Shown one piece after another: positions 34,970 through 50,177 of a stretch of 64,000 bases of DNA. The DNA comes from Rhodoferax sp. Its GTDB lineage: Bacteria; Pseudomonadota; Gammaproteobacteria; Burkholderiales; Burkholderiaceae_C. The notes under the pieces were generated by a model that made no database searches, was not told the DNA's origin, and saw only the letters and a list, made by a program, of their open reading frames with translations. Location of the stretch: assembly GCA_013791765.1 (NCBI GenBank), contig VMTC01000109.1, positions 1 through 64,000 of the forward strand. The letters run 5' to 3'. Positions within the stretch are counted from its first letter, which is position 1. Each line of letters opens with the position of its first letter. Both the position numbers and the translations under genes were made by a program.

Positions 34970-35048
34970 ACCAGAAATGTCCGGAACAGCTTGGCTTCAT
35001 CCCCGAACAGCGCGTTCATGTCATCCACGCCAACAAGGAGCATTAGCC

Positions 35049-35339
35049 ATGAGCAACCGATTCAAGCGCGCCGTCATCGACGACGTGACCTCGCGCAACA
35101 TCGACGACGTCTTGGAGGCGAGCCTGCTGGATTTATTCGAATCCGCCATGAAAACGGTCGCGACGACGCTTGTGCGCGAAGCGAAATTTGACATTAGTGA
35201 TTTCGCCTCTGCCAAAGAGAGAGGCTGCGAGGGTTTTGCATTACTCGTGAGCCGGGCCCGCGCCGACTCACGCAATGAATGGTTTGGCGCGTTTCAGCGG
35301 GGCGAGCAACGCCTTGATGTCATCGGCCATCTCGAGTAG
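35049..35339 (+). CDS. Unknown small protein at the prophage/island border
   Basis: 96 residues, MSNRFKRAVIDDVTSRNIDDVLEASLLDLFESAMKTVATTLV (in part), ending QRLDVIGHLE. ATG 35049 is chosen because AAGGAG lies 8 bp before it, while a longer reading to 34977 lacks a site. Helical, acidic, not matched to a family by eye. It is convergent with the HrgA-like gene (6 bp between stops). It may be the last phage gene (post-lysis moron) or the first of the island. Confidence 0.6.
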   Translation: MSNRFKRAVIDDVTSRNIDDVLEASLLDLFESAMKTVATTLVREAKFDISDFASAKERGCEGFALLVSRARADSRNEWFGAFQRGEQRLDVIGHLE

Positions 35340-35345
35340 TCTTCC

Positions 35346-36287
35346 TCAGTCGGTCGCCTCGGGCACATCCCAATCGGCCAGCCTTGCTTCGCCGGTTTGG
35401 TAGAACTGCTTCACCAGCTTCACGTAATCGAGAAAATCCCGGTTTTCCGTTGCCAGCCGGTTGGCCATGTCCCAATCAATCTCGTCTCGTTCGCGGGCAG
35501 GAATCAACACCTGACTGTCTGCCGGGTTGTCGGCATCCAGTTTAATCAGGCCGATGCCGTGAGCCGCAAACAGCATCCGCAATTCCTTGAGCGTATCCTG
35601 GCCCTCGATCTCCGCTGCGACCAGATAGCCGAAATTGGCCCATGACGAGTTGGATACCGCCTGGAAGTAGCATTCACGCACGTTCGACCGGTTGATCAGC
35701 AACTTCGCCTCGAACGACCACAGCTTGGTGCGTTTGTCGGAGTACTGATTCACGCAGTCCCGAACCTCCTGGTGCCATTCAGCGCCCAAATCCTCCATCC
35801 CGACTACGTCCGGGTACAGCCAACGGTTTCCGTTTGGCCCTCGCTTGTTGGATGAGCGCTTCTCGTCGATTCGCTTCGAATAGACCCCGAACTCTTCCCA
35901 CAGATACAGCGAGAGCAGCGGGTACATCGCGTGTTCCCCGAGCTTGGCATCGCTACTGTCTGCCATAGGAGCGGCAACCACGCCCTCAGCCGCCGCAACT
36001 TCGGCGACGTCAGATTTCTCCGAGTGGTAATACTTGCGTGGCCGACCCTCGGTGGTCTTCAACTCTGGGTGACGTTTCTGCAAGCGCGGGCGCTGCGAGC
36101 TGATTTCCGCGACAAGCTGCTGCACCAGCTCAGCGTCCGTGCTCACGTACTGGCTGCTCTGCTTCTTCGCTTGGCATTCATCAGGGAACGTGACGAAGAT
36201 CCATTCGGCAATCTGCCGCGCAGTCAGCTTCTCATCAGGCCGCTCCTTCAAGTAACCAAGTACGGCCTTCGCCAGATTTAATGCCAT
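35346..36287 (-). CDS. HrgA-like protein, HTH plus PD-(D/E)xK nuclease-like domain
   Basis: 313 residues. N-terminal winged-helix/HARE-like part (MALNLAKAVLGYLKE, TARQIAEWIFVTFPDEC), a linker, and a C-terminal restriction-endonuclease-like part with P159-D160 (RWLYPDVVGME), E193-x-K195 (LWSFEAKLLI) and Q209 (ECYFQAVSNSSWANFGYLVA). This is the COG2958/HrgA family, first known from Helicobacter restriction loci. Nuclease activity is predicted from the residue pattern. Last gene of the nine-gene leftward operon, 11 bp after the CD-NTase; it could be an extra effector. Confidence 0.82.
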   Translation of the reverse strand: MALNLAKAVLGYLKERPDEKLTARQIAEWIFVTFPDECQAKKQSSQYVSTDAELVQQLVAEISSQRPRLQKRHPELKTTEGRPRKYYHSEKSDVAEVAAAEGVVAAPMADSSDAKLGEHAMYPLLSLYLWEEFGVYSKRIDEKRSSNKRGPNGNRWLYPDVVGMEDLGAEWHQEVRDCVNQYSDKRTKLWSFEAKLLINRSNVRECYFQAVSNSSWANFGYLVAAEIEGQDTLKELRMLFAAHGIGLIKLDADNPADSQVLIPARERDEIDWDMANRLATENRDFLDYVKLVKQFYQTGEARLADWDVPEATD

Positions 36288-36298
36288 AGAAATTCCCC

Positions 36299-37075
36299 TC
36301 AGAGCCTGAACAACTTCTTGATCTCGTTCTCAGCCGTTACCGGCAACTCATCCTTCTCGTACTGCCTGACTTTGGCTACGATATTCTTTGCACGCGTGAT
36401 CTCGTTATTCACCCGCTGTGAGTACGACGTGCTGGTATTGAGGTTTTCGATGACCGCAAGGAAGTAGTCCTTCTGATTTGCCAGGAACCAAAAGCTCAGG
36501 CCGCAGACCCATTTCTCCATCTCGTAGGATTGAAACGGGAATCCAGCGGTTGCATTCCAGTACTTGAACAGACGTACGGTGGGCTTGATCAGCGATTTGT
36601 GTTCCTTGTTTTTTGCATCAAGGGTCGCGTTGAAATCGTTCGGGTTCGTGGTCATCCAGCCACCCGCCCCGTTGGGAATCTGAAGCTCTCCAAGCCACGT
36701 TTTCGTCGCGGGCACCAAGTCGAACTTGATGTGGTTCAGTTCGAGAACGATGGTCGGGTTGGACTGGTAGATCTCCGATGAGCCATACCGCTTTTCAACG
36801 AAGGCTTTCAATCGATTCAGGTAAGTCTGCGGGGTGGCGCTGCCATCGCTGAAGACCACCATGTAGTCAATGTCGGACTGCTCATCCATCGAGCGAGGCA
36901 GAATCGTGCCCCGCGTCGACGAACCAAATCGGAAATGCTGCGTTATTGCACTGCTGTCGAAGTGCAGCGCCATCCGGGATTGAAGCGTTGTGATCGAGGT
37001 CGTAATGGATGACTGCTCGGTTGCAGAAAGCACAGCACTGCTGGCCGTGTTCGTCAGAAAACTCAATACAGACAT
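36299..37075 (-). CDS. CD-NTase (SMODS-type nucleotidyltransferase, CBASS-like synthase)
   Basis: 258 residues; ATG 37075 has AGGAGG 9 bp upstream. The nucleotidyltransferase core is plain: G51-S52 in RFGSSTRGT, D68-x-D70 in SDIDYMVVF, and a third acid D119 in HIKFDLVPA. The helical C-terminus (IKPTVRLFKYWNA, VCGLSFWFL) matches SMODS/CD-NTase proteins, which make cyclic di- or trinucleotides on phage infection. Gap to the upstream SLATT gene is 4 bp. Such SMODS-SLATT pairs are predicted CBASS-type systems in which the nucleotide opens the membrane effector. Product nucleotide not predictable by eye. Confidence 0.88.
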   Translation of the reverse strand: MSVLSFLTNTASSAVLSATEQSSITTSITTLQSRMALHFDSSAITQHFRFGSSTRGTILPRSMDEQSDIDYMVVFSDGSATPQTYLNRLKAFVEKRYGSSEIYQSNPTIVLELNHIKFDLVPATKTWLGELQIPNGAGGWMTTNPNDFNATLDAKNKEHKSLIKPTVRLFKYWNATAGFPFQSYEMEKWVCGLSFWFLANQKDYFLAVIENLNTSTSYSQRVNNEITRAKNIVAKVRQYEKDELPVTAENEIKKLFRL

Positions 37076-37079
37076 CCTG

Positions 37080-37616
37080 TCATTCCTCCTTGTCCACTTT
37101 GTGGGTGGCTTCGCCTTCTTCGATTCCTTTTCGCGCAGCAACAAATGCTCGACGCGGAATACTTGGGCTCTTCAAGTTCAACTCATTGCGCGCTGCCGAA
37201 AGCGCCTTAAGCCGTTCCGGAAGCTCGTCTAGTCGATCTGACTGAAGCAGTTCGATCTCCCGGAAAAACCGTGCCTCGTTCCGAAGGGCAAGGAACTGGC
37301 CAGCGGCAGCCCGGTGCAATGCCGCGCGCTCGTTGGGCTTGAGAAAAGTCATCAACCCAGTGAGCAACGATGCCAGAAGGGTGAACGCTGTGGCCCATTC
37401 AGGTTGGCTCTTGATCAGCGTCGCACCTGCGACGGCTCCGAGCACCGTTGCCGGAACACCCAACCAGTAGTTGCGCCGCACCCATGTGTCTTCGGCGTTG
37501 AAATGTCCCTTGCTCGAATAGAGGGTGTCTTCTTCCAGTCGCTCCGCCTCTCTGCGAAGTGCGGAAGTCTTGCCCTGGTCGGCTGTAGCTGTTCGTGTCA
37601 TTGCGTCCTCTCCCAT
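37080..37616 (-). CDS. SLATT-domain two-TM protein (predicted membrane effector)
   Basis: 178 residues. ATG 37616 (AGGAGG upstream) is favoured; ATG 37601 with GAGAGG is also possible. Two transmembrane helices (about residues 50-68, YWLGVPATVLGAVAGATLI; and 74-92, WATAFTLLASLLTGLMTFL) follow an N-terminal helix and are followed by a long amphipathic helix (AAAGQFLALRNEARFFREIELL). That is the SLATT layout (SMODS and SLOG-associating two-TM effector), thought to form membrane pores on nucleotide signalling. It stands between HsdR (10 bp) and the CD-NTase (4 bp). Confidence 0.86.
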   Translation of the reverse strand: MGEDAMTRTATADQGKTSALRREAERLEEDTLYSSKGHFNAEDTWVRRNYWLGVPATVLGAVAGATLIKSQPEWATAFTLLASLLTGLMTFLKPNERAALHRAAAGQFLALRNEARFFREIELLQSDRLDELPERLKALSAARNELNLKSPSIPRRAFVAARKGIEEGEATHKVDKEE

Positions 37617-37626
37617 TTGCCCCTCC

Positions 37627-40623
37627 TCACGCCGACGCGCCCGTCTGTGGCGGGGTCTTTGGCGGTATTGCACCCGGGTGGTAGGTCGAGTCGAAGACCA
37701 TATCGGTCAGCCAGCGTTTGAAACTGGGGTTATCGCTGAACTGTTTGAACAGCTCGGTGTGGTCGGAGATTAGTTCCAGCACTACGCGATTCAGCGCCTT
37801 GTCGTGCTCCAGCTTGGCGTTCTGCTTGTCGGAGTTGGCCTGCGCGTTTTGGTAGGCCTTGTCCTGAGCCACGCGCGCCGGAATTTCCTCGGTAATGACC
37901 TTGCGAATCTTGTCGCCGTCCTTCCATTCGATGTTGCCGAACATGTCGTTGAAGGCTCTGATGATGTTCGACAACTTGTCGATTTCCGGCGTACCGCCAC
38001 CACCGCCGCCGCCGGGCGGGGGCGGTTCGATGAAGGCGTCGGTATCGTCCATCGACATCTTCAATGACGCCTGCGCTTCTACCCGATAGCTGTCCATGTC
38101 GATGGCTTCCAGCACGCCCTTGGAGAGGTCTTCCTCCTTCGGGGCCGGTAGCTTCGGGATCAGGAAGTTCAGGAAGATCGACAGCTTTTCCCAGGCCGGG
38201 TGGCCGTAGGTCAGGATCGCAGCAAGAAAGCCGTAGCTGCGCACGAAAGCCTTGGCATTGCCCTTGAACTCGACTTGACCCTCTTCGTCCAGGTTGTCGA
38301 TGTACTCGGCCACACAGGTATCGAGAATGGGGTCGAGCTTGTCGCGGTCTGCGCCGGTGACATAGAGCGCAACCAAATCTTCAACCTGCTGCCAGCTGTA
38401 CACCTGCTTGGCATCGAGGTCATTCTTCAAGTCGTGCAGCTTATTGGGGTCGGTTTCGCCGACCTGCACCGTCGCGCGGTAATAGTCCTGAAATGCGGCT
38501 TTCACGGCCTCGGCGTTGTCGGCAAAGTCCAGCACGAAGGTATCGCGCTTTTGCGGGTGAGCTCGGTTCAGTCGAGACAGCGTTTGCACCGCCATCACGC
38601 CACCCAGTGGTTTGTCCACGTACATCGTGTGCAGCAGCGGCTCGTCGAAGCCTGTGACGAACTTGTTGGCGACGATCAGAAAGCGATACGGGTCTTGCTT
38701 GAGCTTGGACGGGATGTCCTTACTCGGGAATGAGTTGAGATCGGCTTCGGTCTTTCTTACCCCGCCAATTTCAAAGTCGCCCGAGTACGCCACGATGGCC
38801 TTAAACGGGCTCTTGATCGAGGTGAGGTAATCCGACACCTCGCGGTAGTAGTCGATGGCCCGTGCGATGCCATTGCAGACGATCATTGCCCGTGCCTTGC
38901 CACCGATCTTCTGCTTACCCGCCACCTGCGCCACGAAGTGATCGATCATGATCTCGGCCTTCTTGCGGATGGCTTTGTCGTGGGATTCGACGTAATGACG
39001 AATCTTCTTCAGCGCCTTCACCTTGTCGAAGTCTGGATCGTCCTCGACTGTCTTGGCGACGTGATAGAAGCTGTCCACCGACGTGTAGTTCGCAATTACG
39101 TCGAGGATGAAACCCTCTTGAATCGCCTGCTTGGTGGTGTAGGTCAGTTCCTCCGGCGAGCGGTATCGCGCCTCACCGCCCTCGATGAACCGCTCCCCGA
39201 ACAACTCCAGTGTTCGGTTCTTCGGCGTGGCCGTGAACGCGAAGTAGCTGGCGTTCGACAGCATCTTGCGCGACTCGATCAATTTGTTGACGGCGTCCTC
39301 GACGGATTCTTCGTCGTCTTCGTCGTCACTAGGAGCGCCTGACAAGGCCATGTGCATCTTGGCCGTCGTCTTGCCGCCCTGGCTGGAATGCGCTTCGTCG
39401 ATCAGCAGCGCGAACTTCTTGCCACCAAGGTCGCCCAGTTCATCGAGGATGAACGGGAACTTCTGCACCGTCGTCACAATGATCTTCTTGCCTTTGCGCA
39501 GGAAGGTGCGCAGTTCGGCCGCATCTTCGGAATGCCCGAAGATCGATGCAACGTGGTCGTAGCTTTTGATGGTGCGCGCGATCTGGGTATCCAGCGCACG
39601 TCGGTCGGTGATGACGATCACCGAGTCGAACTGAGCCAACATCGCATCGGCGGCGGTCTTGAGTTCGACCAACTGGTGAGCCAACCAGGCGATGGTGTTG
39701 CTCTTGCCGCTGCCTGCCGAATGCTGGATGAGATAACGCTTGCCAACCCCATCCTCGCGGGAGCGGTGCAGCAAGGCACGGACGGTACGCAATTGATGAA
39801 AACGAGGGAACACCTGCTTGCGCCGCTTCTTGCCCTTTTCGTCTTCCTCTTCCACCACCTGAGTGAAGTTCTCGATGATGTTGGCCAGCGAGTCCTTGAC
39901 CATCACCTGCTTCCACAAATAGTCGGTTTTCAGGCCATGCGGGTTGGGCGGATTGCCCGCACCGCTGTTCCAGCCCTGGTTGAACGGCAGGAACCACGAG
40001 GTCTTGCCGGTGAGATGCGGGCAGAACCGCACCTCGGCATCATCCACCGCCATGTGCGCCACGCATCGCCCCAACTGGAACAGCAGCTCGCCCGGGTTGC
40101 GGTCGGTCTGGTACTGAGTGATGGCGTCAGCGACAGTTTGCTTGGTCAGCGAGTTTTTCAACTCGAAGGTCATCACCGGAAGACCATTGATGAAGATGGC
40201 GACGTCCAGCGAGCGCTGCGACTCGTCATTGCTGTAGCGCAACTGGCGGGTGACGCTGAAGATGTTCTTGCCGAAGTTCTCAGCAGCACTGGCGTTGCCC
40301 GGTGTCGGTAGCAGCTTGTACAGATCAACGTGAACCGGGCCGTGGCCCACGCCCTTGCGCAGCACATCCACCACGCCCCGCTTGGCGATCTCGCCCTGGA
40401 TGCGGTGCAAGAACTGGGTGCGCTTGATACCGTCGCTTGCCAGTTCCAGTGTTTCGACCGTCTTAGGCTGGGTGGTCTGCAGAAACGCCAGCAACTGCAC
40501 CACGTCCACTGCCACGTCGCGGTTGTAGTCGCTGGGGTTGCCCTGCACGTAACCTCCGCCGGTGCAGAGGTCGCGCACGATCAAGGCCTCCAGGCCTTTT
40601 TCGCTGGTGTCAGTTGTCGCCAT
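37627..40623 (-). CDS. hsdR: Type I restriction enzyme, HsdR subunit
   Basis: 998 residues from ATG 40623 (AGGA 5 bp upstream), which overlaps the end of the hsdS-like gene by 14 bp. The N-terminal nuclease part has VMTFELKNSL (E-x-K near residue 153); the translocase has Walker A HSAGSGKS (about 301-308), DEAH-box LLIDEAHSSQ (about 409) and later TGFDEPLLHTMYVDK. A linker of four Pro and seven Gly (EPPPPGGGGGGG) precedes a helical C-terminal domain ending FDSTYHPGAIPP. It pumps and cuts unmodified DNA in complex with HsdM and HsdS. Complete by length and motifs. Confidence 0.96.
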   Translation of the reverse strand: MATTDTSEKGLEALIVRDLCTGGGYVQGNPSDYNRDVAVDVVQLLAFLQTTQPKTVETLELASDGIKRTQFLHRIQGEIAKRGVVDVLRKGVGHGPVHVDLYKLLPTPGNASAAENFGKNIFSVTRQLRYSNDESQRSLDVAIFINGLPVMTFELKNSLTKQTVADAITQYQTDRNPGELLFQLGRCVAHMAVDDAEVRFCPHLTGKTSWFLPFNQGWNSGAGNPPNPHGLKTDYLWKQVMVKDSLANIIENFTQVVEEEDEKGKKRRKQVFPRFHQLRTVRALLHRSREDGVGKRYLIQHSAGSGKSNTIAWLAHQLVELKTAADAMLAQFDSVIVITDRRALDTQIARTIKSYDHVASIFGHSEDAAELRTFLRKGKKIIVTTVQKFPFILDELGDLGGKKFALLIDEAHSSQGGKTTAKMHMALSGAPSDDEDDEESVEDAVNKLIESRKMLSNASYFAFTATPKNRTLELFGERFIEGGEARYRSPEELTYTTKQAIQEGFILDVIANYTSVDSFYHVAKTVEDDPDFDKVKALKKIRHYVESHDKAIRKKAEIMIDHFVAQVAGKQKIGGKARAMIVCNGIARAIDYYREVSDYLTSIKSPFKAIVAYSGDFEIGGVRKTEADLNSFPSKDIPSKLKQDPYRFLIVANKFVTGFDEPLLHTMYVDKPLGGVMAVQTLSRLNRAHPQKRDTFVLDFADNAEAVKAAFQDYYRATVQVGETDPNKLHDLKNDLDAKQVYSWQQVEDLVALYVTGADRDKLDPILDTCVAEYIDNLDEEGQVEFKGNAKAFVRSYGFLAAILTYGHPAWEKLSIFLNFLIPKLPAPKEEDLSKGVLEAIDMDSYRVEAQASLKMSMDDTDAFIEPPPPGGGGGGGTPEIDKLSNIIRAFNDMFGNIEWKDGDKIRKVITEEIPARVAQDKAYQNAQANSDKQNAKLEHDKALNRVVLELISDHTELFKQFSDNPSFKRWLTDMVFDSTYHPGAIPPKTPPQTGASA

Positions 40624-42703
40624 CGTCTTCCTCCCCATCGGTATCCAATTCTTCGTCGCCGCCGAGCACTGCCAATTCTTCGTCGGCCACAATGTCATCC
40701 GGGCCCGGCACCCAACCTCGCACGTCCACCTGGCCAGTGACCACGTCTGCAATTTGCCGGTCGCGATACTCGCGGATCAGTTTGATTTCTGTCAGTGCCT
40801 GCTCGATGGCTTGATCCAGAGGTGCACTTTCGGCCTTGATGTGAGCAAGAATCGATTGCTGTTCTTCCAAAGTCGAAGGCATCACAACAGGGAACCGACC
40901 GAGCACAGTCTCTGCAATCGCTGGGTAGGCAATGCCGATTGAATTGGCAGTGACGCGATTGACGAAGCCGGTGCTTTGAATTACATAGCCGAGGTATTCG
41001 GACTCAACATCCTTTCCGGGCGTCATAACCGCGAAACCAGTGGAAGCGATCAAATCGTCGGCTTCTTCGTTGACGTACCAGATGGCTTTCAGGTACGTGC
41101 GAACGGTCGAGATGATCGTGTCACCGCGCTGCAATACCCGGCGTGCCCGCGACGGTGCATTTTCAAAACGGAGTCGTTCAAGTTCCTTCGCCAATCGCCC
41201 GGTCTTCACAGACCCGATGTCGAGGTAGCGAAACTCAAAATCCGGATCGGTCTTTTCTCCCAAGGTGCTCGCATTCAAGTGAACCCATCGCTTGAGAGGC
41301 TTGACCGACCAATGCTCAGGTACATCCCCCATCCACTCGATACCGGAAGGCTTGAACGCGACCGACGCATCGAGCCCGCGCGTGACGTTGTGGTCGATGA
41401 TGCGCAACTTTTGCTCGTTCAGCACCGCGATGAGGTCGCGCTTGGCCTTGATGAACCGTGCAATGCGGGCATCCTGCGTACGCAGGTAGGCGACGATCTG
41501 GTCTTGCTCGGGGCGCGGCGGTTGCAGCAGCGCGATGTCGAGGAACTGGTTCGGGTACAGGCGCAGACGCGAGGATCGGATGCCGGTTGAGCGCCCAATG
41601 TATTCAGCAACGTAGGCCCGGGTGCGCAACAGGTAATCGAGATACGCAGGGTTGTAGCTGTCGACACTGTGCGGCCGATACACGCCGTAGGCCGGACTGA
41701 CGATACCCACGTGCCTGCTCGCACCAAGCGCCGCCATCCACGCCCAAAGCGTGTTGATCACGATGTCTCCTGGACGGCACAACTTGGAGCCGACATAGCT
41801 CGCGGACTTGAACATCGTCACTTTTTTCTGGCTGCGGGGCGTAACCCCGGTCAGGTGCGATACCGACAGCAGCTCCTCTTCGCCAGTACGCGAGCGCTCA
41901 TCCACCTCACGAAAAAACACCTTGGCGCGCTGCTCGTCCCAGTGCTTCGGCACGGGCGGCAGCCAACGCATTCGCGCCGTGCGGTAGGTTTCGTAAGCAG
42001 CCTTGTGTGATTGAGCCGCAGCCGGAGCATCCGGAGGAGCTGTAGCCTCGATGGTGACGGTAGCATCCGTCCCAAAGAGGGCGCCTTGTTCCTGATCGGC
42101 GGCGGCCTGCGGCGGCGGCGAATCCGATGCGACTTCAATCGGCCGCCCCAGCAGCAGGAACTGAGGAAGGTCAGGGGGCGCAATATCAAGGGCTGCGTCG
42201 CGCCCTTGCTGCTTCACCTGTTCGCGCAGTTCCATCAGCAGCCTGCCCAAGACATTCATGCCAACGAGGGTCTCACCATTGTCAACGACTTTTGCTCCCC
42301 AAAAATCGTCCTTGCGCGACTCCTCGACGATGGGCCGCTCGCCCGTTCTCAACAGCAGCGCGCTGAAGGTGTTCCAGTTGTTGGCCAGCTTCATGCGCAG
42401 GCTCCAGCGCATGATGCGAACTCGTACCTGATCCCAATCGAGGCGCGAATCCTTGCGGTAGGGCTTGCTCCGCATCTTGGCTGTCATCGGGCTGATTTGG
42501 CCGATGATCATCTTCTGCACATCGGGAAGATGCGGGAAGCGGCAGACCTGATACAACGCCTCTGAGGTTAGTATCCGCAGCCCGTTCACATGGATCGGGT
42601 AGCCACCGGCCATGTTGGAGAGTCCGCCAAACGGTTCGTTCGTCTTGAGAAAGACGACGCTCTCCTTACGGATGTAGGTTCGAGTCTTATCTCTATCGCC
42701 CAT
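40610..42703 (-). CDS. NADAR domain fused to type I specificity subunit HsdS
   Basis: 697 residues, starting MGDRDKTRTYIRKESVVF at ATG 42703, which overlaps the stop of the PRTase-like gene (TGATG). Residues about 14-165 are a NADAR/YbiA-type domain: FGGLSNM (25-31), S47-E48 in LTSEALYQVCRF, E128 and DDFWGAK (132-138), and LGRLLMELRE (152-161). An Ala/Pro/Gln-rich linker follows to about 245. Residues about 260-690 are HsdS with two target recognition halves (LPPVPKHWDEQRA, PSGIEWMGDVPEHWS) each ending in coiled-coil spacers. NADAR enzymes cleave ADP-ribose from guanine or act on riboside intermediates; fusion to HsdS would bring this to the bound DNA. Confidence 0.88.
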   Translation of the reverse strand: MGDRDKTRTYIRKESVVFLKTNEPFGGLSNMAGGYPIHVNGLRILTSEALYQVCRFPHLPDVQKMIIGQISPMTAKMRSKPYRKDSRLDWDQVRVRIMRWSLRMKLANNWNTFSALLLRTGERPIVEESRKDDFWGAKVVDNGETLVGMNVLGRLLMELREQVKQQGRDAALDIAPPDLPQFLLLGRPIEVASDSPPPQAAADQEQGALFGTDATVTIEATAPPDAPAAAQSHKAAYETYRTARMRWLPPVPKHWDEQRAKVFFREVDERSRTGEEELLSVSHLTGVTPRSQKKVTMFKSASYVGSKLCRPGDIVINTLWAWMAALGASRHVGIVSPAYGVYRPHSVDSYNPAYLDYLLRTRAYVAEYIGRSTGIRSSRLRLYPNQFLDIALLQPPRPEQDQIVAYLRTQDARIARFIKAKRDLIAVLNEQKLRIIDHNVTRGLDASVAFKPSGIEWMGDVPEHWSVKPLKRWVHLNASTLGEKTDPDFEFRYLDIGSVKTGRLAKELERLRFENAPSRARRVLQRGDTIISTVRTYLKAIWYVNEEADDLIASTGFAVMTPGKDVESEYLGYVIQSTGFVNRVTANSIGIAYPAIAETVLGRFPVVMPSTLEEQQSILAHIKAESAPLDQAIEQALTEIKLIREYRDRQIADVVTGQVDVRGWVPGPDDIVADEELAVLGGDEELDTDGEEDDGDN

Positions 42704-43737
42704 CACAGATCGCCTCCGGTCAGGTCGGCGAACATTCTTCTCACAGCAGTCTGCGTGTTCGTGGTGCGCGGGAACAGCGGGTACCACGGCGCATCCACCC
42801 AAAAAACCAGCGGAGCGTTGTTGGGGCAGTTGCGATAGGTAACGATGAGCGAGCCGAAGCCCAGTGTCTCCAGCGTCATGTGGCCCAGTGGTCGCTGCGT
42901 GGCACCGAGGTTGGGGCACATTTGCCGGATGCGGACACCTGCTTTCAGGAACTCCTGCTCCAGAAGAATCTTGGCCGCATCGCTGGAGAACAGACCCGCA
43001 GCGCCGGGGCTGCCAGGAGTTCTAAGCATTGGCTGATACTGCATGGCAGCCACGTAGGCTTGCACCGCCGGATCGTTCGGAATCGCCGTCGGGCGCAACA
43101 CGTCCGACGTTGCGCTGTAGGTTCGTCTGTCCTCCAACTCGATGGCACGCCACCAAGTGATGTCAATCTTCTTTCCAGCAGCCTTGATGACTGCCTGAAT
43201 CTTTCCATTCGCGTAATACTGCCCGCCACTGTGCTGGGCGATACAGACCACATGCAGCTTCGCCTGAGCGGGAGCATGGTCATGGACCCATCCTTCCAGA
43301 TCGCGCCGTACCCGGTTGCCAGTGAAGATGCCGTCATCCAGATAGATGAAGACGTCACCGCCTTTCCCGCAACCATCGATGCCAAATCCAAATTCCTCCG
43401 TCAGTTGTTCGGAGAACAGGGCCAGCATGTCGGTCTGGCTGTCGCCGCCGCCTTGGATATCGAGAAAGTTAGCGTTGAGCCAGAACTGCTTGGCGTTATC
43501 GCCAGTGAGCTTTTGGGTGCGAATCGCGCCACGGATGAATTTGGCCACCTTCTCATTCGAGAAGTAGATGTTCTTCAGGACGTGGTCTATCTCCTGCAGG
43601 ATAGGCAACTGCACGGCATCGTCGAACTGCTGGACCCAGTGCTCAACGTGGTCGGTGATGGGCTGAGGGAGCGAGCCACCTCGGTAGTCCTGAATCGTCT
43701 GGGCGATGGACGCCAGAAGGTTGTTCCGTTGGCTCAT
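42703..43737 (-). CDS. PRTase-like protein of conflict systems (PRTase-CE-like)
   Basis: 344 residues. ATG 43737 overlaps the hsdM stop (ATGA). Near residues 130-141 VFIYLDDGIFTGNRV resembles the PRPP-binding loop of phosphoribosyltransferases (hhhhDDhhxTG), with a Rossmann-like order around it (AKLHVVCIAQHSGG, then KKIDITWWRAIELEDRR). Proteins of this type appear in predicted immune operons as PRTase-CE. It likely binds a ribose-phosphate compound and may act with the NADAR domain encoded next. A normal biosynthetic role is unlikely inside a restriction operon. Substrate unknown. Confidence 0.72.
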   Translation of the reverse strand: MSQRNNLLASIAQTIQDYRGGSLPQPITDHVEHWVQQFDDAVQLPILQEIDHVLKNIYFSNEKVAKFIRGAIRTQKLTGDNAKQFWLNANFLDIQGGGDSQTDMLALFSEQLTEEFGFGIDGCGKGGDVFIYLDDGIFTGNRVRRDLEGWVHDHAPAQAKLHVVCIAQHSGGQYYANGKIQAVIKAAGKKIDITWWRAIELEDRRTYSATSDVLRPTAIPNDPAVQAYVAAMQYQPMLRTPGSPGAAGLFSSDAAKILLEQEFLKAGVRIRQMCPNLGATQRPLGHMTLETLGFGSLIVTYRNCPNNAPLVFWVDAPWYPLFPRTTNTQTAVRRMFADLTGGDL

Positions 43738-46133
43738 GCTGGAATTTCTCCCACGATCTTGTGCAGCAAGCCTTCAGTCTGCTGCTCCAGCTTCAGGATG
43801 TCGTCACGGATCTGATCCAGCGTCCGTAGAGGCGTCGGCTTGTAGAAATAGCGGGCAAACGAAATCTCGTAGCCGATCTTGGTGGCGTCCATTGAGATCC
43901 AGGAATCGGGCGCGTGGGGTAGCACTTCTCGGGCGAAAAACGCCTCTATGCCGCCCGGTTCCTTGAGCGGAACCTGCTCGGTGTCGCGCAGGTCGGTATC
44001 GGCCTCGTACTCGACCAAGAAGCGATCCTTGCCCACGGTTTCCAGGTAGGCACCGTCGTGGCCGGGCTCGAAATGATCACCCGCCTTGAGCTTGCTGCGC
44101 TTGGCGATAACGGGCGGTGCCGTTTCGTCGCGCCAGCTCACCGCCTTGTAGATGGCCTTTTTCTCGGGCGCACCCAGCTTCTTGCTGTGCGCCTTCATCG
44201 TGGCATCAAATCGCGTGCGGAACTCGTTGTGGTCGTCGAACACGCCTTCGCCAAGTTCCTGCTGCGCCAGCTTGGCCAGTTCCACCAGCGTCTTGTCACG
44301 CAACCACGTCGCGGGGTCGAGTAGCTTCTTGCGCCGTTTTTCCGGCACCGCTTTCTTGGTGGTCTTGACGTCGTCGTCGTCCGACTCCTCGTCACCATCT
44401 TCGTCGCCATCGTCACCCTTCAGCCACGCTTCGATTTCGGGCTTGAGCTTGGCGAATTCCGTATACAGCTTGTCGCTGTACTTGGTGTAGATTTCGCTGC
44501 GCAGGGTTTCGTCGCCGGTGGCAAAGCGCAGGCTTTCAATGGCGTTGCGTTTGAGCTGACTTTTGAGGCGTAGCGGGCGTTCGACCGTGATCTTCCAGTA
44601 GCCGAAGTCGGCGTTGTCGAACCACTTGCTTTCGGGTACTGCCTTTGCGGCTTCTGCATCGGCGGGTGGTTGGTCGAGGTAATGCTTCAGGATGCGTTCA
44701 ATGTCCGCGTCCGCCAGCTCGCAGTTTTTCTTGCCGAGGTTGCGCCGCATCGGAAGGAACCACTGCGAGGCGTCGATCAGTTGTACCTTGCCGCGCCGGT
44801 GCGCGGGTTTCTTGTTGGCCAGCACCCAAATGTAGGTCGCGATACCGGTGTTGTAGAAGATGTTGAGTGGCAGGGCGATGATGGCTTCGAGCCAGTCGTT
44901 CTCCAGCACCCAGCGGCGCACATTGCTTTCGCCCTGGCCCGCGTCGCCAGTGAACAATGCTGAACCGTTATGCACCAGAGCAATGCGGCTGCCCAGTGGC
45001 GTGTTGTGCTTCATCTTCTGCAGCTTGTTCACCAGGAACATCAGCTGCCCGTCGCTGGAACGGGTGATGAGCTTGAACTCGGCATCGCCGCCGTGATTGA
45101 CGATGAAGCGCGAGTCGCTGAATTCCTTCTTGCCGCCCATCCGGTCAAGGTCGGTCTTCCAACTCTTGCCGTAAGGCGGGTTGGAGATCATGAAATCGAA
45201 CTCGCGCGACCGGAACTGGTCGGCTGAAAGCGTGGACTTGTCCGCGCCGCCGACGATGTTCTCGGCCTCGTCGCCTTCGCCCTTGAGCAGTAAGTCGGCC
45301 TTACAGATGGCGTAGGTCTCGGGGTTGATTTCCTGCCCGAACAGGTGGATCGAGACTTCCTTGTCGTGGCTGGCGGCCAGCTCGTGCAGCGCCTCTTCGG
45401 CCACGGTCAGCATGCCGCCCGTGCCGCAACTGCCGTCGTACAGCAGGTAGGTGCCAGACTGAATTTGGTCGGCCACCGGCATGAACAGCAACTTAGCCAT
45501 CAGCTTGACGACATCACGCGGGGTGAAGTGCTCACCAGCCTCTTCGTTGTTCTCTTCGTTGAAGCGGCGGATCAGTTCCTCGAACACCGTGCCCATGCCG
45601 TGGTTGTCCAGCGCGGGCAGTTTGATCCGGCCGTCTGCATCCTTAACAGGAAGCGGCGCGAGGTTGATCTCCGGGTCGAGGAAGTCGTTGATCAAGTGAC
45701 CGAGGATGTCGGCCTCGACCATCGTTTGGATCTGGTCTCGAAATTTGAACTTTGCCAATATGTCCTGAACGTTCGGCGAGAAACCGTCCAGGTAATCGAC
45801 GAAATTGTCGCGAAGGCGCTGTCCCTGCCCACTGGCGGTGAGAGTGGCCAGGGTGAATTCTGACGTGTTGTAGAACGCTTGCCCGGCAGCCATCCGCAGC
45901 GCGCCGTCCTGCTCTGCCACCTTGTGAGTGTCGAGGAACCTCTTGCGCTCCAGCACCGCCTGCTTGGTTGACTCCAGCACGGCATCAAGCCGCCTCAAAA
46001 CGGTGAAGGGAAGGATCACGTCACGGTACTTGCCGCGCACGTAGACGTCGCGCAGGCGGTCGTCAGCGATATTCCAGATGAAGTCAGCAACCCACTTTAG
46101 GTTGTTTTGATCTTGTTGTTTTACGGGTTTCAT
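43734..46133 (-). CDS. hsdM: Type I restriction-modification methyltransferase, HsdM
   Basis: 799 residues, long for HsdM (usually 480-550). The N-terminal helical domain (LKWVADFIWNIADDRLRD) is followed by HFTPRDVVKLMAKLL, AdoMet motif YDGSCGTGGML near residue 234 and catalytic NPPYGKSW near 317, so an N6-adenine methylase. The extra C-terminal 270 residues include a charged stretch (EDGDEESDDDD then KKAVPEKRRKK) and a terminal helix for HsdS contact (TLDQIRDDILKLEQQTEGLL). It starts at ATG 46133 overlapping the DUF262 gene's stop (TAATG). Confidence 0.96.
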   Translation of the reverse strand: MKPVKQQDQNNLKWVADFIWNIADDRLRDVYVRGKYRDVILPFTVLRRLDAVLESTKQAVLERKRFLDTHKVAEQDGALRMAAGQAFYNTSEFTLATLTASGQGQRLRDNFVDYLDGFSPNVQDILAKFKFRDQIQTMVEADILGHLINDFLDPEINLAPLPVKDADGRIKLPALDNHGMGTVFEELIRRFNEENNEEAGEHFTPRDVVKLMAKLLFMPVADQIQSGTYLLYDGSCGTGGMLTVAEEALHELAASHDKEVSIHLFGQEINPETYAICKADLLLKGEGDEAENIVGGADKSTLSADQFRSREFDFMISNPPYGKSWKTDLDRMGGKKEFSDSRFIVNHGGDAEFKLITRSSDGQLMFLVNKLQKMKHNTPLGSRIALVHNGSALFTGDAGQGESNVRRWVLENDWLEAIIALPLNIFYNTGIATYIWVLANKKPAHRRGKVQLIDASQWFLPMRRNLGKKNCELADADIERILKHYLDQPPADAEAAKAVPESKWFDNADFGYWKITVERPLRLKSQLKRNAIESLRFATGDETLRSEIYTKYSDKLYTEFAKLKPEIEAWLKGDDGDEDGDEESDDDDVKTTKKAVPEKRRKKLLDPATWLRDKTLVELAKLAQQELGEGVFDDHNEFRTRFDATMKAHSKKLGAPEKKAIYKAVSWRDETAPPVIAKRSKLKAGDHFEPGHDGAYLETVGKDRFLVEYEADTDLRDTEQVPLKEPGGIEAFFAREVLPHAPDSWISMDATKIGYEISFARYFYKPTPLRTLDQIRDDILKLEQQTEGLLHKIVGEIPA

Positions 46134-47890
46134 TAAGCCAGCCCTTGCGATGCTGTTGTTGTGTCAGGCGCTTTGCTGACTGATCCGGTTGGCGCTACTT
46201 CAAGTGCCCAGTGTTTCTTGAGCACGCCGACGAGGCGCTTTTGCCGATCAGTCAGCATCGCCGGTGTCCATTTGTCTTCCGAGCGGACTTCCTGAGTCAG
46301 GACGAAGGGTGATGCGGTACCCTTGCCCTTGAAGTACACATTCTTCTTCTTGGCGAAGTCGTAGTTGCTGGCGGACGAGTTCTTGTTCCGGTCAAGCGGA
46401 ACCAAGTTGGCCAGGCGGTGTGTCCACGATTCCCGCTCGCTCTCATCGGGGAACCACTGGAGCCAGTCCGAGCCATTCGGCGGTGTTTGCGGCAGTACGT
46501 GCTCCAACGACACCGCGTTCTGCAGTTGTACTCCGGGGGCCCGCACCAATGATTCAAGGCGCAAGACCAGCGCCATCCGTGCTTTGGGCAGATCGTCGTA
46601 AACGTCGCCATCGAGTGCCGCGACGAACTTACGCTTTTGCACGTCAGTCAGAACCAGCGTGGTGAGCTCGGCCAGATCTCCTTTGAAGGTATCCGGTTCG
46701 ATTTCCTTGGTGAGCGCGGCGTAGGTTTCGATGCGCTCGTTGATGCCCACCTTAGTGACCAGCAAGAAATAGGTCAGCCGTTCCAGTGATTCGAAGAATT
46801 CCGCGAGCAGTTTGGGTTTTTGCCGGAAACTCTTGAAATACACCAGTGCCGGGGGCACCCAGTCTTTAAAGTCCACGCGGTTGAGCCAGGACAGGTGCTC
46901 GTTGATCGTCTCGGCATGCTCGGTGGCCTCGAAGTCGGCGTCGCGCACGAAGTCCCACACTTCGGCGTAGGGCTTGACAACCTTGTCGATCAGGTCGATG
47001 GGGGCCTTGTATTCAGTAACGTGCTCCTGGAACTCCTTGACCAGTGTGTACTTCTGCTTTTTCTTGGCGTAGATGCTGCGGATGTGGCCGAACAGGTCTC
47101 CGAATGCGTCTCGGCCCAGTGCGTTTTCAATCTGGCTCCACTCTTTGGCGTAGGCACGGCTCTTAACGTCGCCTGCCGTGGTGCGGATCAGGCCCAGCAC
47201 TTGCGCCTTGATGATGTCAATGGGCGCGAGGTCGAGCCCCCGGTTGTTGAGCACGGAGAAGATACGGTACGCGGCTTCGAGGTCAGGCGTAGAGATGACA
47301 ACCAGCGAACAGTCGTTGGCGAGGAACTGCCACAGCGCGATCAGGTCGGCGGGCGGTAGAGCCTTGGCCTTGCTCAGCAGCAGCGTGGCGTTTTCGCGGT
47401 AACGCAGACGGCTGTCTTCCAGCTTGTCGGTGCTGGCGACCAACTGCGCAATGCCACCCGGCTCCTGAATGTTGGTGCGGAAGAAGTTGGCGTCTTCCTC
47501 GCGGGCGGTCAGGCGGTACTCGTTCTTCTCGCCAAGACTGACCTTACCCTTCTTATATAGGAAGTCGGTAATGTCGTCAGCGGCATCCGGCATCACGGTG
47601 CGCAGCACGGCGAACAGCATCGTGAGTGTGGATAGGCGCTGCTGGCCATCGACCACCGATGACTTCGGGTCCCGGTCGTTTTTGATCAGAACGATGCTGC
47701 CGAGGAAGTATTGGCTGCTGGCACCCGAGACTCGCGCATCTTTCATCGCCGAGTACAGATCATCGAACAGCTCTGTAGCCTGCTCGGTTGTCCAGGCGTA
47801 GGGGCGCTGGTAGTCCGGAATTTCGAACTGGTAGCTGCCCTCGAAAATTTCGCGGATCAGCTTGTCGTGGGCTTCAAGTGTCTTTGCCAT
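46133..47890 (-). CDS. DUF262/DUF1524 protein (GmrSD-like, predicted modification-dependent nuclease)
   Basis: 585 residues. DUF262 motifs: IPDYQRPYAWTTEQ near residues 24-37 and VVDGQQRLSTLTML near 80-93, a DGQQR element related to ParB/NTPase folds. The C-terminal part has the DUF1524 His-Me finger: SLEHVLPQTPPNGSDW (about 462), then HRLANLVPLDRNKNSSASNYDF. This combination is the architecture of GmrSD-type type IV restriction proteins that cut modified DNA. Here it is second in the operon and overlaps hsdM, so it may add a second, modification-sensing barrier. Both domains appear intact. Confidence 0.9.
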   Translation of the reverse strand: MAKTLEAHDKLIREIFEGSYQFEIPDYQRPYAWTTEQATELFDDLYSAMKDARVSGASSQYFLGSIVLIKNDRDPKSSVVDGQQRLSTLTMLFAVLRTVMPDAADDITDFLYKKGKVSLGEKNEYRLTAREEDANFFRTNIQEPGGIAQLVASTDKLEDSRLRYRENATLLLSKAKALPPADLIALWQFLANDCSLVVISTPDLEAAYRIFSVLNNRGLDLAPIDIIKAQVLGLIRTTAGDVKSRAYAKEWSQIENALGRDAFGDLFGHIRSIYAKKKQKYTLVKEFQEHVTEYKAPIDLIDKVVKPYAEVWDFVRDADFEATEHAETINEHLSWLNRVDFKDWVPPALVYFKSFRQKPKLLAEFFESLERLTYFLLVTKVGINERIETYAALTKEIEPDTFKGDLAELTTLVLTDVQKRKFVAALDGDVYDDLPKARMALVLRLESLVRAPGVQLQNAVSLEHVLPQTPPNGSDWLQWFPDESERESWTHRLANLVPLDRNKNSSASNYDFAKKKNVYFKGKGTASPFVLTQEVRSEDKWTPAMLTDRQKRLVGVLKKHWALEVAPTGSVSKAPDTTTASQGLA

Positions 47891-47908
47891 CGTTTTCTGT
47901 CTTTCCGA

Positions 47909-48829
47909 TCATTTTTTTGTTTGCATCACCGGAAGGCGATACCCTGGTGCCAGCTTTGCGTTTTCCACGCCGTACAAGGCCAGCGGGTCGCTGAGCCATA
48001 GGCGGTACTGTTCTTCCTTGAGGCTGTGATCGGGCGAAGCGTCAACGCTCCAGCGCAGCAGCATGTAGCCTGCGACCGCAGCGCGAACCCGCATTCGTAT
48101 TGAGCCATCCGTCATCCCGTAGTCCATCTGAATGATCTCGGGGCGGCTCAGACGAGGGTGAGGGACAAAGTCCAGCTCCACGATCCGCGTCCACTGGATG
48201 TCGTTGTCCTGGCGTTCGTTCGGCTTTGGCTCCTCGTCGAGCAAGGTTGGTGCTTCAATTCGCGTGATGACGAAATCGCGAAATGTACCGCTCTTGCGAT
48301 CAAAGGCACGGACGTGCCAGCGCAGTCCGGTGTCGACCAAGGCAAAGGGCACGATGACTCGGTCGGACTCACCGCTGCTCATTGAGTGGTAGCGGATGGC
48401 CACCGGGCGATTGGCGTGGATGGCGCGGCAAATCGGAGCCAAGACTTCCATTTGAGGGTTACTCAAGGGTGCAGGGGATTCACAGGGAAGCAAAGGTTTG
48501 GTCTCGCCGTTCACCCCATCGCCAAACCCAAGCGACAACGCCGACAGGACGCGCTGAGGCGAGTGCTGAAAAATTGGGCGGAACACTTTGCCGATGCGGT
48601 AAACCTTGTTGCTACCGTCGAATTCGATGTTCTGAGGTGCGATCTCCCGGTAGAGCGCCAAATCCCGGGTTGCGCCAGCCGGGGCAATTCCAAATCGGTT
48701 AGCCAAGTCAGGCCGTCCGATCTCACCCATAAAGTACAGGCGAAATTCAACGTAGGCCAGGCGCTCCCGTTGGGCGTGACTCAAACTCTCAACACGTTGA
48801 GGGCGCTCAGGGAGCTGATCTTCAATCAT
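47909..48829 (-). CDS. WYL-domain transcriptional regulator (CapW/BrxR-like)
   Basis: 306 residues from ATG 48829. N-terminal winged helix (RERLAYVEFRLYFMGEIGRPDLANRFGIAPAGATRDLALYREIAP, in part), a central WYL part (AIRYHSMSSGESDRVIVPFALVDTGLRWHVRAFDRKSGTFRDFVITRI, in part), and a C-terminal WCX-like end (AGYMLLRWSVDASPDH). This is the form of CapW/BrxR repressors at the head of BREX and CBASS loci, which respond to nucleic acid or nucleotide signals. It is the first gene of the leftward operon (18 bp before the DUF262 gene) and a palindrome lies upstream. Confidence 0.88.
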   Translation of the reverse strand: MIEDQLPERPQRVESLSHAQRERLAYVEFRLYFMGEIGRPDLANRFGIAPAGATRDLALYREIAPQNIEFDGSNKVYRIGKVFRPIFQHSPQRVLSALSLGFGDGVNGETKPLLPCESPAPLSNPQMEVLAPICRAIHANRPVAIRYHSMSSGESDRVIVPFALVDTGLRWHVRAFDRKSGTFRDFVITRIEAPTLLDEEPKPNERQDNDIQWTRIVELDFVPHPRLSRPEIIQMDYGMTDGSIRMRVRAAVAGYMLLRWSVDASPDHSLKEEQYRLWLSDPLALYGVENAKLAPGYRLPVMQTKK

Positions 48830-48882
48830 AGACACCGACCAATAGACACAAAGAAGATGGTTTCATGCTCTTTATCAAATTT

Positions 48883-48909
48883 ATAATCTGATCAATGTGA
48901 TTAGATTAT
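48883..48909. promoter_or_regulatory. Operator candidate of the WYL regulator
   Basis: Twelve-base arms ATAATCTGATCA and TGATTAGATTAT around ATG, with one G/T mismatch. It lies 54-80 bp upstream of the WYL start in an AT-rich stretch, as expected for autoregulation by a dimeric winged-helix protein. Confidence 0.65.
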
Positions 48910-49005
48910 GCGTCAATAATTTGGCATCAATAAGCATTTGGATGAATTGAAACACTATTTGCAGTGGTGCGGCCGCCAGTGTGATGCCTTCTTCACGGAC
49001 TTGCC

Positions 49006-49100
49006 AAGAAAAAACCCAGCGAATTAGGCTGGGTTGAACCCTTGCGGGCTCCGTTCAGGGAGGAGAAACGGAGGGGCAGTAAGCCCGCTCGAAATGTAGC
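49006..49100 (-). ncRNA. Candidate structured small RNA with intrinsic terminator
   Basis: On the minus strand: AGCGGGCT and AGCCCGC (complement of 49082-49088 and 49044-49050) enclose CTCCGTT/AACGGAG (49049-49055/49067-49073), then GGGTTCAACCC, then a perfect terminator GCTGGGTT stem (49013-49020/49028-49035) with six T. No protein gene feeds this terminator, so a short RNA ending there is likely. The shape is reminiscent of phage C4-type antisense RNAs, but that identity is unverified. It lies between the WYL operon and the AAA gene. Confidence 0.5.
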
Positions 49101-49180
49101 ACGCACCTGGGACCCGTTTGGACGGACTTAACTTCGATTGAGACGATTGAAATGCGAGTAAACTGCAGTTTGGAGAACCT

Positions 49181-50170
49181 ATGCCCAGAGCCGACCTAGT
49201 AGTCAATCTTGTGCGAGCGGGCAGCCAAGGCGATCAAAGTCTGTTTCGGTCGACTGTGGAAGCCATGGCCGCAGAAGAACGCGCAAAACAGCACAACCAG
49301 TTAGCAGACCGGTTGGAAGCTAACCTGCGCGCTGCAAACACCCGTCCAAAAGCCGTTGAGGTCGTTCGCAGCTTTGATGGTGGTCACGGTGGACTACTTT
49401 ATGAAATAGATCCTCGGCGCACATTGGAATCAATGTTGCTACCTGACGATGTTCTCAAAGCCACTTCTGAACTCATTGAAGAGCAGCAACGCCGCGATCT
49501 TTTACGATCTTATGGATTGGAGCCAAGGCACCGGGTTCTTGTGTCTGGGCCGCCTGGAAACGGCAAAACCACTCTGGCCGAGGCAGTTGCACATGCGTTG
49601 ATGGTGCCCCTGTTTGTCGTTCGATACGAGGCGGTTATCGGCAGCTTTCTTGGTGAAACCAGCGGTCGCCTAAAAAGACTCTTTGATTTTGTTCGCACCC
49701 ATCAATGTGTTCTATTTTTTGATGAGTTTGATACGCTCGGAAAAGAGCGAGGCGACACCCATGAAACTGGTGAAATAAAGCGGGTAGTTAGCTCGTTGCT
49801 GCTACAGATAGACGCTTTACCAAGCCATGTGGTGGTGGTGACCGCCACTAATCATGCAGAACTTTTGGATCGTGCAGTATGGCGGCGTTTCCAATTGCGT
49901 ATGAACCTGCCTGGGCCTACCACAAATCAAAGAACTGCTTGGTTTGATCGATTTGAAGAACGAATTGGAACTCCGCTTGGGATTTCATCTAAAGTACTTG
50001 CAAGTCGGTTGAAGGCGACCAGTTTTTCTGACCTTGAGCAATTTTGTGAAGATGTGCATCGCCGATACGTTCTTTCATTGCCAAATTCTGATTTGCGTGC
50101 AGTGATAACTGACCGTTTAGAACAGTGGAAAAATCGAGTCTCGTCTGTGACTAGTCCGACGCAACAGTAG
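49181..50170 (+). CDS. AAA+ ATPase paired with subtilase
   Basis: 329 residues. N-terminal 100 residues are helical (ERAKQHNQLADRLEANLRAAN), then an AAA+ core: Walker A SGPPGNGKTT (122-131), Walker B VLFFDEFD (177-184), sensor 1 TATN (221-224) and an arginine pair after LLDRAVWRRF. Lacks a nuclease or protease part itself. Codon use is more AT-rich than the flanks. It precedes the S8 protease by 7 bp. Two-gene AAA-plus-subtilase units recur in defence islands; the ATPase probably controls or feeds the protease. Confidence 0.9.
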   Translation: MPRADLVVNLVRAGSQGDQSLFRSTVEAMAAEERAKQHNQLADRLEANLRAANTRPKAVEVVRSFDGGHGGLLYEIDPRRTLESMLLPDDVLKATSELIEEQQRRDLLRSYGLEPRHRVLVSGPPGNGKTTLAEAVAHALMVPLFVVRYEAVIGSFLGETSGRLKRLFDFVRTHQCVLFFDEFDTLGKERGDTHETGEIKRVVSSLLLQIDALPSHVVVVTATNHAELLDRAVWRRFQLRMNLPGPTTNQRTAWFDRFEERIGTPLGISSKVLASRLKATSFSDLEQFCEDVHRRYVLSLPNSDLRAVITDRLEQWKNRVSSVTSPTQQ

Positions 50171-50177
50171 ATGTCGG

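Follow-up and report, generated by a model that had tools for sequence, protein, structure and literature searches.

Accessory effectors coupled to type I restriction-modification (R-M) complexes have a precedent in the PrrC/EcoprrI guard, which we take to be an anticodon nuclease whose gene is embedded among the restriction genes and not fused to HsdS. Embedding of defence genes is also known from the RRDM island of enteropathogenic Escherichia coli (EPEC), where DarTG2 lies in a type I R-M operon (PMC12255303), from the TgvAB genes in V. cholerae VPI-2 (PMC11411939), and from the Hma systems related to Type-1 BREX. NADAR proteins undo the ADP-ribosylation of guanine in DNA and are able to act as antitoxins (PMC11125620), and a survey of nicotinamide adenine dinucleotide (NAD)/ADP-ribose systems (PMC9503650) describes host ARG-centred systems with WYL regulators and an occasional NADAR, not a NADAR::HsdS fusion. 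DS-32, in which the gene of a phosphoribosyltransferase (PRTase) directly precedes that of a NADAR protein, appears by our own attribution to be linked to DefensePredictor, whose main text (PMC13092281) mentions DS-n systems along with a NADAR and a PRTase, and has no occurrence of "DS-32". Here we analyse a 64,000-nucleotide stretch of DNA from Rhodoferax sp. (contig VMTC01000109.1 of assembly GCA_013791765.1, positions 1 to 64,000; "the window"), in which both DS-32 genes stand inside a type I R-M operon and the NADAR forms a single open reading frame (ORF) with HsdS; the locus is therefore filed as a DS-32-containing variant and not as plain DS-32. In our preferred reading, to which we assign a probability of roughly 0.6, a type I R-M operon located at a prophage cargo site serves as chassis, into which the DS-32 pair has been built by way of a functional tether. 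The restriction genes and the pair are the following (TRD, target recognition domain; PRPP, phosphoribosyl pyrophosphate):

43734..46133, minus strand: HsdM, type I methyltransferase (HsdM_N and N6_Mtase; NPPY motif)
42703..43737, minus strand: PRTase-CE/DS32_1, with a DDGIFTG PRPP-loop-like motif, directly before NADAR::HsdS
40610..42703, minus strand: NADAR(DS32_2)::HsdS, 697 aa (NADAR 1-190, linker 192-235, two-TRD HsdS 236-680)
37627..40623, minus strand: HsdR, 998 aa (HSDR_N nuclease part and DEAH helicase part by Pfam)

A first-pass annotation of the window had listed a "NADAR-HsdS" gene, and the two parts do share one ORF. Both DS-32 proteins scored above the curated NCBIfam cut-offs (419.5 vs 250 bits for DS32_1, 273.1 vs 240 bits for DS32_2) and kept the DS-32 gene order, but in contrast to the free-standing two-gene unit the pair lies within the R-M operon and its NADAR is joined to HsdS. 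With RRDM the locus shares an ADP-ribose-type pair within a type I operon behind a repressor; there, however, DarT and DarG are unfused and lie between hsdS and hsdR (PMC12255303), whereas here the pair stands between hsdM and hsdS and contains a PRTase instead of an ADP-ribosyltransferase (ART) besides the fused NADAR. The PRTase likewise occupies the place of the ART in comparison with DarT-NADAR toxin-antitoxin systems, no ART partner being found among the Pfam matches of the operon proteins. TgvAB is similar in that GmrSD-type genes are embedded in a type I R-M operon, but consists of two proteins (PMC11411939), whereas the window encodes one two-domain protein before hsdM. No description of a NADAR fused to HsdS or HmaB was found in the journal literature searched, a search made mostly by listing and with preprints outside it, and the main text of the Hma paper (PMC12839542) contains neither "NADAR" nor "PRTase".

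The restriction genes have the sequence features of a type I system, namely an N6-methyltransferase HsdM with an NPPY motif, an HsdS with two TRDs, and an HsdR combining HSDR_N with a superfamily 2 (SF2) part; HsdR carries DEAH and D...ELK motifs of the SF2 translocase type and stays below the NCBIfam hsdR cut-off (211.6 vs 284.55 bits). A second HsdM, 47% identical, is encoded elsewhere in the genome (G000:C53:43035-44453). The HsdS part of the fusion matched the PADLOC type I specificity subunit (2.4e-96), with Pfam Methylase_S below its cut-off. The AlphaFold model of the fusion comprises a folded NADAR, a low-confidence stretch (residues 192-235) and an HsdS that is complete, containing two TRDs along with two conserved helices (Foldseek matches 7vru, 1yf2, 2y7c and 5ybb); its mean predicted local distance difference test score (pLDDT) is 80.5, and with a predicted template modelling score (pTM) of 0.57 the relative placement of the domains is not reliable. 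The NADAR domain aligns to YbiA of E. coli (2b3w) and to 8bau, the structure of a NADAR with ADP-ribose, and matches the riboflavin-intermediate N-glycosidase family TIGR02464 (1.6e-19) with 70.7 bits against a cut-off of 73.7. The NADAR part of the model also matches Esub1, which was solved with Prx (8vsr/8vsq; TM 0.65-0.68 by target), and judging from this structural match Esub1 is possibly an unrecognised NADAR-like fold.

Twelve NADAR residues (E48, Y51, Q52, K76, W100, K105, E127, W135, G136, G148, N150 and G153) were invariant in all 86 aligned rows, and E158 was kept in 80 of them. The loop of the PRTase was similarly constant (Asp134 and Gly140 in 85/85 rows, Asp135 in 84/85), and the invariant residues of both proteins were conserved alike in fused and unfused rows. 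Ratios of nonsynonymous to synonymous substitution rates (dN/dS) against four loci were 0.07-0.13 for NADAR and 0.10-0.15 for the PRTase. The PRTase model is confident (pLDDT 92), and a sequence search of a five-row PRTase profile against the PDB yielded chance-level matches alone. The weak match of the PRTase sequence to the PADLOC family "PRTase_III-A" (best 5.8e-10), presumably a retron effector, fits an effector role; PRTase effectors occur in retrons.

The distribution of the fusion was assessed in a species-level genome collection scanned with a 5-row PRTase alignment, from which the best 80 of 110 relatives were retained. NADAR was fused to HsdS in 27 of these loci, to a DUF1156 methylase in three and to a DUF4365 protein in one, and had no long extension in 48; the remaining locus (L077) has no readable NADAR and its contig ends there. 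Between 473 and 544 residues follow NADAR in the 27 HsdS fusions and at most 109 in the 48 unfused proteins, so that the division does not depend on HsdS similarity alone. In all 27 loci PRTase-NADAR::HsdS stands between HsdM and HsdR; HsdM of the window's family was present in 27/27 and HsdR in 25/27 (the contigs of L020 and L033 end soon after). By phylum label these loci, several of them from metagenome-assembled genomes, belong to Pseudomonadota (20), Planctomycetota (2), Thermodesulfobacteriota (2), Chloroflexota (1), Verrucomicrobiota (1) and Acidobacteriota (1), of which the Chloroflexota-labelled L027 is probably mis-binned, as it carries proteobacterial prophage genes. Conversely, HsdM and HsdR of the window's type were detected in none of the 55 rows without an HsdS fusion (BLAST E<1e-20). 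In these rows, which include three plasmid loci and of which 40 are at least 15 kb long, NADAR is unfused or has another partner; profiles of higher sensitivity revealed other type I genes just in L065 and L077, on the opposite strand. The recurrence of NADAR::HsdS in other loci led us to reject a sequencing error as the cause of the fusion.

NADAR::HsdS was also found in five viral contigs (L013, L014, L015, L207 and L208), while the other 18 new viral loci had a NADAR without HsdS match, one of them in a longer ORF of 401 codons (L211). The PRTase had no match in 50,697 GenBank phage records, and none of 854 matching plasmid records covered 80% of the NADAR::HsdS query in one place; NADAR::HsdS without PRTase was covered just by this plasmid search and the HsdM-led sets. 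The loci described so far are enriched samples. As to rates, NADAR exceeded its cut-off in one of 100 relatives, which was the window's own genome; of 398 genomes of the phylum three, the window's own among them, have the PRTase, and the two others are unfused. HsdM was matched in 35/274 genomes of the class, own included, and one (L133) of 20 HsdM stretches read, mostly the best scoring of the other 34, contained PRTase-NADAR::HsdS.

A second restriction system shows parallel wiring. In three Hma-type loci (L035, L089 and L090), whose restriction machinery differs from that of the window, the PRTase again stands directly upstream of a NADAR, here fused to the DUF1156 methylase. HmaA, HmaB and HmaC were recovered in full by PADLOC in L035 and L089, the latter in the order HmaA, PRTase, NADAR::HmaB, HmaC; in L035, HmaA and PRTase are separated by an ORF of 1481 codons that matches Sacsin. 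The match of L090 to Hma is weaker (HmaA 9e-169, HmaC 1.7e-85, methylase by Pfam DUF1156 alone). In 400 genomes around G748, NADAR exceeded its cut-off in two, once in the Hma fusion itself and once in a 271-codon ORF. At L046:10001-13739, two tandem PRTase ORFs are followed by the NADAR fused to DUF4365. As the partner differs, the HmaB and DUF4365 fusions represent separate joining events. On the sequence level there is thus a conserved covalent link of the DS-32 NADAR to the predicted DNA-reading subunit of type I systems, and a parallel one to the Hma methylase.

Such an arrangement could also arise if independent defences were stacked, the fusion just securing co-inheritance and equal dosage while DS-32, R-M, GmrSD and CBASS act alone. 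DS-32, type I R-M and the SLATT/CD-NTase pair are each found without the others, and TgvAB from a type I operon protected alone, less well than the whole cluster (PMC11411939). However, dosage leaves unexplained why every DS-32 copy found beside the window's R-M family is fused, and why the Hma-type partner is again a methylating subunit, which carries a TRD according to PMC12839542; we regard independent action as rather unlikely.

Rows with NADAR fused to HsdS do not form one clade on the PRTase tree. With 86 rows in this tree, they required eight changes, four of them forced by starred branches, and a single clade of HsdS fusions was rejected (approximately unbiased test, p-AU 3.9e-58; the short L015 was omitted and the tree had been seen before the test). 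In an HsdM tree of 59 chosen loci, DS-32 presence required 12 changes, 10 of them forced, and the nearest HsdM of the window (L159, 93%) is without DS-32. These numbers are not counts of new fusions, since recombination of a PRTase-NADAR::HsdS cassette would give the same pattern. Among 26 compared loci, the ten with a NADAR more than 80% identical had NADAR identities of 81-95% (median 89.5), TRD1 identities of 34-93% (median 39) and TRD2 identities of 12-87% (median 20). Predicted specificity thus changes while NADAR stays near-constant.

We consider it likely that the tether is functional. As part of HsdS, NADAR would enter the M2S and R2M2S assemblies on a flexible tether, and a hydrolase of glycosidic bonds would thus be positioned close to the DNA site of each complex. 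The PRTase would be the antiviral effector, modifying a base or nucleotide with PRPP, and NADAR would reverse or restrain it. With NADAR tied to the self-marking, DNA-reading subunit (HsdS, or HmaB in Hma), the intact R-M complex would act as an off-switch; if a phage inhibitor captured or destroyed the complex, or engagement of foreign DNA moved NADAR away, the PRTase would act as a second layer. A PRTase effector with a tethered NADAR restraint is favoured by the existence of NADAR antitoxins and retron PRTase effectors and by DarTG2 in a type I operon. Given a functional tether, we rate this guard function at slightly less than even odds, action of NADAR on bases in DNA as a tentative possibility, and a reaction on a shared metabolite as somewhat more doubtful still.

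Several observations weigh against the chassis-and-tether reading. In 48 of the 80 loci PRTase and NADAR occur unfused, and whatever the pair does must therefore be possible without a tether. In 5/27 loci HsdM and PRTase are separated by an entire DUF262 gene, so direct coupling of these two is not general. The 80 loci were ranked by score to a query led by the window's protein and are not a random sample; several loci are near-copies (L013, L015, L020), and exchange of hsdS cassettes could have spread few fusions widely, leaving fewer origins than loci. The conserved NADAR residues are the family-invariant ones and do not amount to a mapping of published catalytic residues. The PRTase model resembled known PRTases weakly (Foldseek; best E 1.9e-3, TM <0.41, uracil PRTases first), and no ART was found among the Pfam matches of the nine operon proteins.

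Two chemical alternatives assign NADAR a different role. In the first, HsdS or HmaB would deliver NADAR as an N-glycosidase that strips ribosyl-type base adducts from DNA at R-M sites; the PRTase would be the writer of these adducts or a partner enzyme, and the purpose would be either the unmasking of modified phage DNA or the cleaning of host sites. The activity of NADARs on ADP-ribosylated guanine in DNA (PMC11125620), the DNA-reading nature of the main fusion partners and the retention of the family-invariant residues argue for it. Against it, the same pair is unfused in 48/80 loci, and one partner is DUF4365 (L046). To our knowledge, moreover, no phage adduct for such an activity is known, and we hold this reading, including either purpose, to be unlikely. 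In the second, the PRTase would attach a base to PRPP and NADAR would hydrolyse the resulting compound, so that PRPP would be consumed in the course of infection. By family, the base-ribose bond is the target of both enzymes (PRPP motif; TIGR02464 match), but such a futile cycle gives no reason for a tether to a DNA-reading subunit and appears improbable.

The remaining features of the operon and its candidate operator are:

48883..48909, no strand: 12-nt inverted repeat, a near-perfect palindrome and candidate operator upstream of the WYL gene
47909..48829, minus strand: WYL regulator of BrxR/CapW type (Pfam WYL 2.4e-13; PDB matches)
46133..47890, minus strand: DUF262/DUF1524 protein of GmrSD type (GmrSD_N and GmrSD_C; DGQQR, QR and EH..P/N..P.D motifs)
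37080..37616, minus strand: SLATT_4 protein with two hydrophobic segments (NCBIfam SLATT_4, 132 bits, cut-off 55)
36299..37075, minus strand: CD-NTase (SMODS 1.5e-38; GSS...DID motif), with SLATT directly upstream
35346..36287, minus strand: HrgA-like protein (PD(V/L)(V/I)G...E(A/V)K kept in 13 aligned sequences)

All nine leftward ORFs of the first-pass annotation are present, in the tight spacing claimed for them (four overlaps and four gaps, none above 18 nt). With the gene starts chosen here, WYL and DUF262 are separated by 18 nt, HsdR and SLATT by 10, SLATT and CD-NTase by 4, and CD-NTase and HrgA by 11, while DUF262/HsdM overlap by 1, HsdM/PRTase by 4, PRTase/NADAR::HsdS by 1 and HsdS/HsdR by 14. 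Eight of the nine family names were supported by Pfam, PADLOC or NCBIfam. The ninth gene, for which HrgA is the name we presume, matched no family in these three collections; its PD(V/L)(V/I)G...E(A/V)K motif makes a PD-(D/E)XK nuclease possible. DUF262 DGQQR together with a DUF1524 His-Me finger agrees in pattern with a GmrSD type IV enzyme. As in CBASS with a two-transmembrane effector, the SMODS CD-NTase with its active-site motif adjoins an effector gene (SLATT), but it falls below the NCBIfam CBASS cyclase cut-off (95.9 vs 200 bits), and the pair is therefore called CBASS-like. The WYL protein is a near full-length homologue of BrxR/CapW, residues 15-299 of 308 aligning to its nearest PDB match 7qfz (1.8e-86), presumably a BrxR structure, followed by CapW (1.5e-36) and BrxR 7t8k (7.5e-24). 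In L010, L011, L022 and L023 a script located similar palindromes, roughly as far upstream of the WYL gene as in the window; for L012 and L014 it ranked a different repeat first, and a comparable TGAT/ATCA motif was seen there by eye alone. Promoter-like and terminator-like motifs within 35000-49400 showed no excess over shuffled sequences (4 vs 4.1 and 13 vs 15.6). The nine genes presumably lie on a single transcript, and the operon is probably WYL-controlled.

The first-pass annotation had gone further and proposed that all nine genes act together, with the CBASS-like pair as a last-resort killer that perhaps fires when restriction fails. Tight spacing on one strand and a WYL gene with palindrome at the head speak for such a unit, as does L026, where a SLATT gene starts after HsdR beside DS-32 at the contig end, making a second DS-32 and SLATT operon likely. 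Against it, the full set was present in the window's genome alone among the loci examined (many of them cut by contig ends), its modules occur in many other combinations, several of them on the same site, and a CD-NTase of the window's type was found in 2/398 genomes, own included, the other match being partial. Sub-blocks also occur alone, such as WYL-DUF262-HsdM-S-R (L010, L011) and PRTase with NADAR lacking the window's R-M family (48/80 loci). Joint action of all nine genes is therefore very improbable in our view. What stands of the proposed unit is a tightly packed, probably WYL-controlled defence operon in which restriction is joined to the PRTase/NADAR pair, the closest wiring in the operon, by a fusion conserved elsewhere.

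Cargo-site combinations comprise HsdM-S-R-HrgA (L159), DUF262-HsdM-S-R-HrgA (L166), HsdM-S-R-SLATT-CDN-HrgA (L151; CDN, CD-NTase), WYL-HsdM-PRTase-NADAR::HsdS-HsdR-HrgA (L014) and WYL-DUF262-HsdM-PRTase-NADAR::HsdS-(DUF1828/1829)-HsdR-HrgA (L023). SLATT-CDN-HrgA without the window's R-M family is present in L153 and likewise in L154, which suggests that HrgA travels with either module. An Aeromonas plasmid carries WYL-HsdM-S-R-SLATT-CDN and a DUF262 fragment, Enterobacter plasmids carry WYL-DUF262-HsdM-HsdS-HsdR near a TnsE gene, and Rhizobium L016 has a SMODS CD-NTase and SLATT pair without R-M. Other genes occupy the gap between HsdS and HsdR elsewhere: RhuM (L013), HTH-IrrE (L027), DUF1828/1829 (L023) and a pair of AAA and McrBC-component genes (L030). 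Of 32 fused loci, 10 contain DUF262: it precedes HsdM in three, lies between HsdM and PRTase in six and is a short ORF in L038. None was found in the 55 other DS-32 loci, and among 57 R-M loci lacking DS-32 it was matched in 10, weakly in seven of them and in some cases outside the operon. The position between HsdM and PRTase (L049, L057, L060, L067, L076, L168/L208) is a second way onto the same core, and the Pfam-scanned DUF262 proteins of L060 and L208 have GmrSD_N and no GmrSD_C match. Gene content marks GmrSD and SLATT/CD-NTase as separable plug-ins, each being seen both together with the other modules and apart from them, and the nine-gene set looks like one of many mix-and-match combinations.

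The left flank (1-35339) is a prophage with primase, ParB-like/methyltransferase, terminase, portal, protease, tape measure, tail and lysozyme genes, and the operon was accordingly rejected as part of the host core genome. On the right follow the IetAS pair and then the host genes mgsA, lolA and ftsK; IetA (AAA) and IetS (subtilase) form a complete defence pair at 49181-52733 on the plus strand, head-to-head with the WYL operon (PADLOC 1.2e-152 and E=0). A small gene (34977-35339) and a lysozyme gene follow HrgA also in L013, L014, L015, L018, L023, L129, L151, L156, L157, L158, L159 and L166, with lysozyme identities of merely 32-33% in L013, L015 and L151, and the small gene was seen without lysozyme in L021, L027, L153 and L154. 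These shared neighbours place the operon on a recurrent prophage cargo site. The viral contig L150 (IMGVR_UViG_3300015049_000012, 37,075 bases), with proteins 99-100% identical to those of the window, apparently corresponds to window positions 1-37075 and ends at the CD-NTase start; the predicted provirus edge would thus fall within the operon.

Defence genes in R-M operons are usually taken as mere neighbours. A covalent fusion with two kinds of R-M systems in distant bacteria suggests instead that two machines have been wired together. Tentatively, and with less than even confidence, R-M specificity subunits (HsdS and the Hma methylase) may repeatedly have been turned into platforms for the delivery or restraint of PRTase/NADAR enzymes that write and erase a base-ribose bond, so that self/non-self reading would control an effector other than cleavage. 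The fusion also offers a handle on the chemistry of DS-32, for which no description was found, as its partner directs attention to the subunit that reads DNA and marks self, and it opens to experiment the question of how a restriction complex communicates with a second effector.

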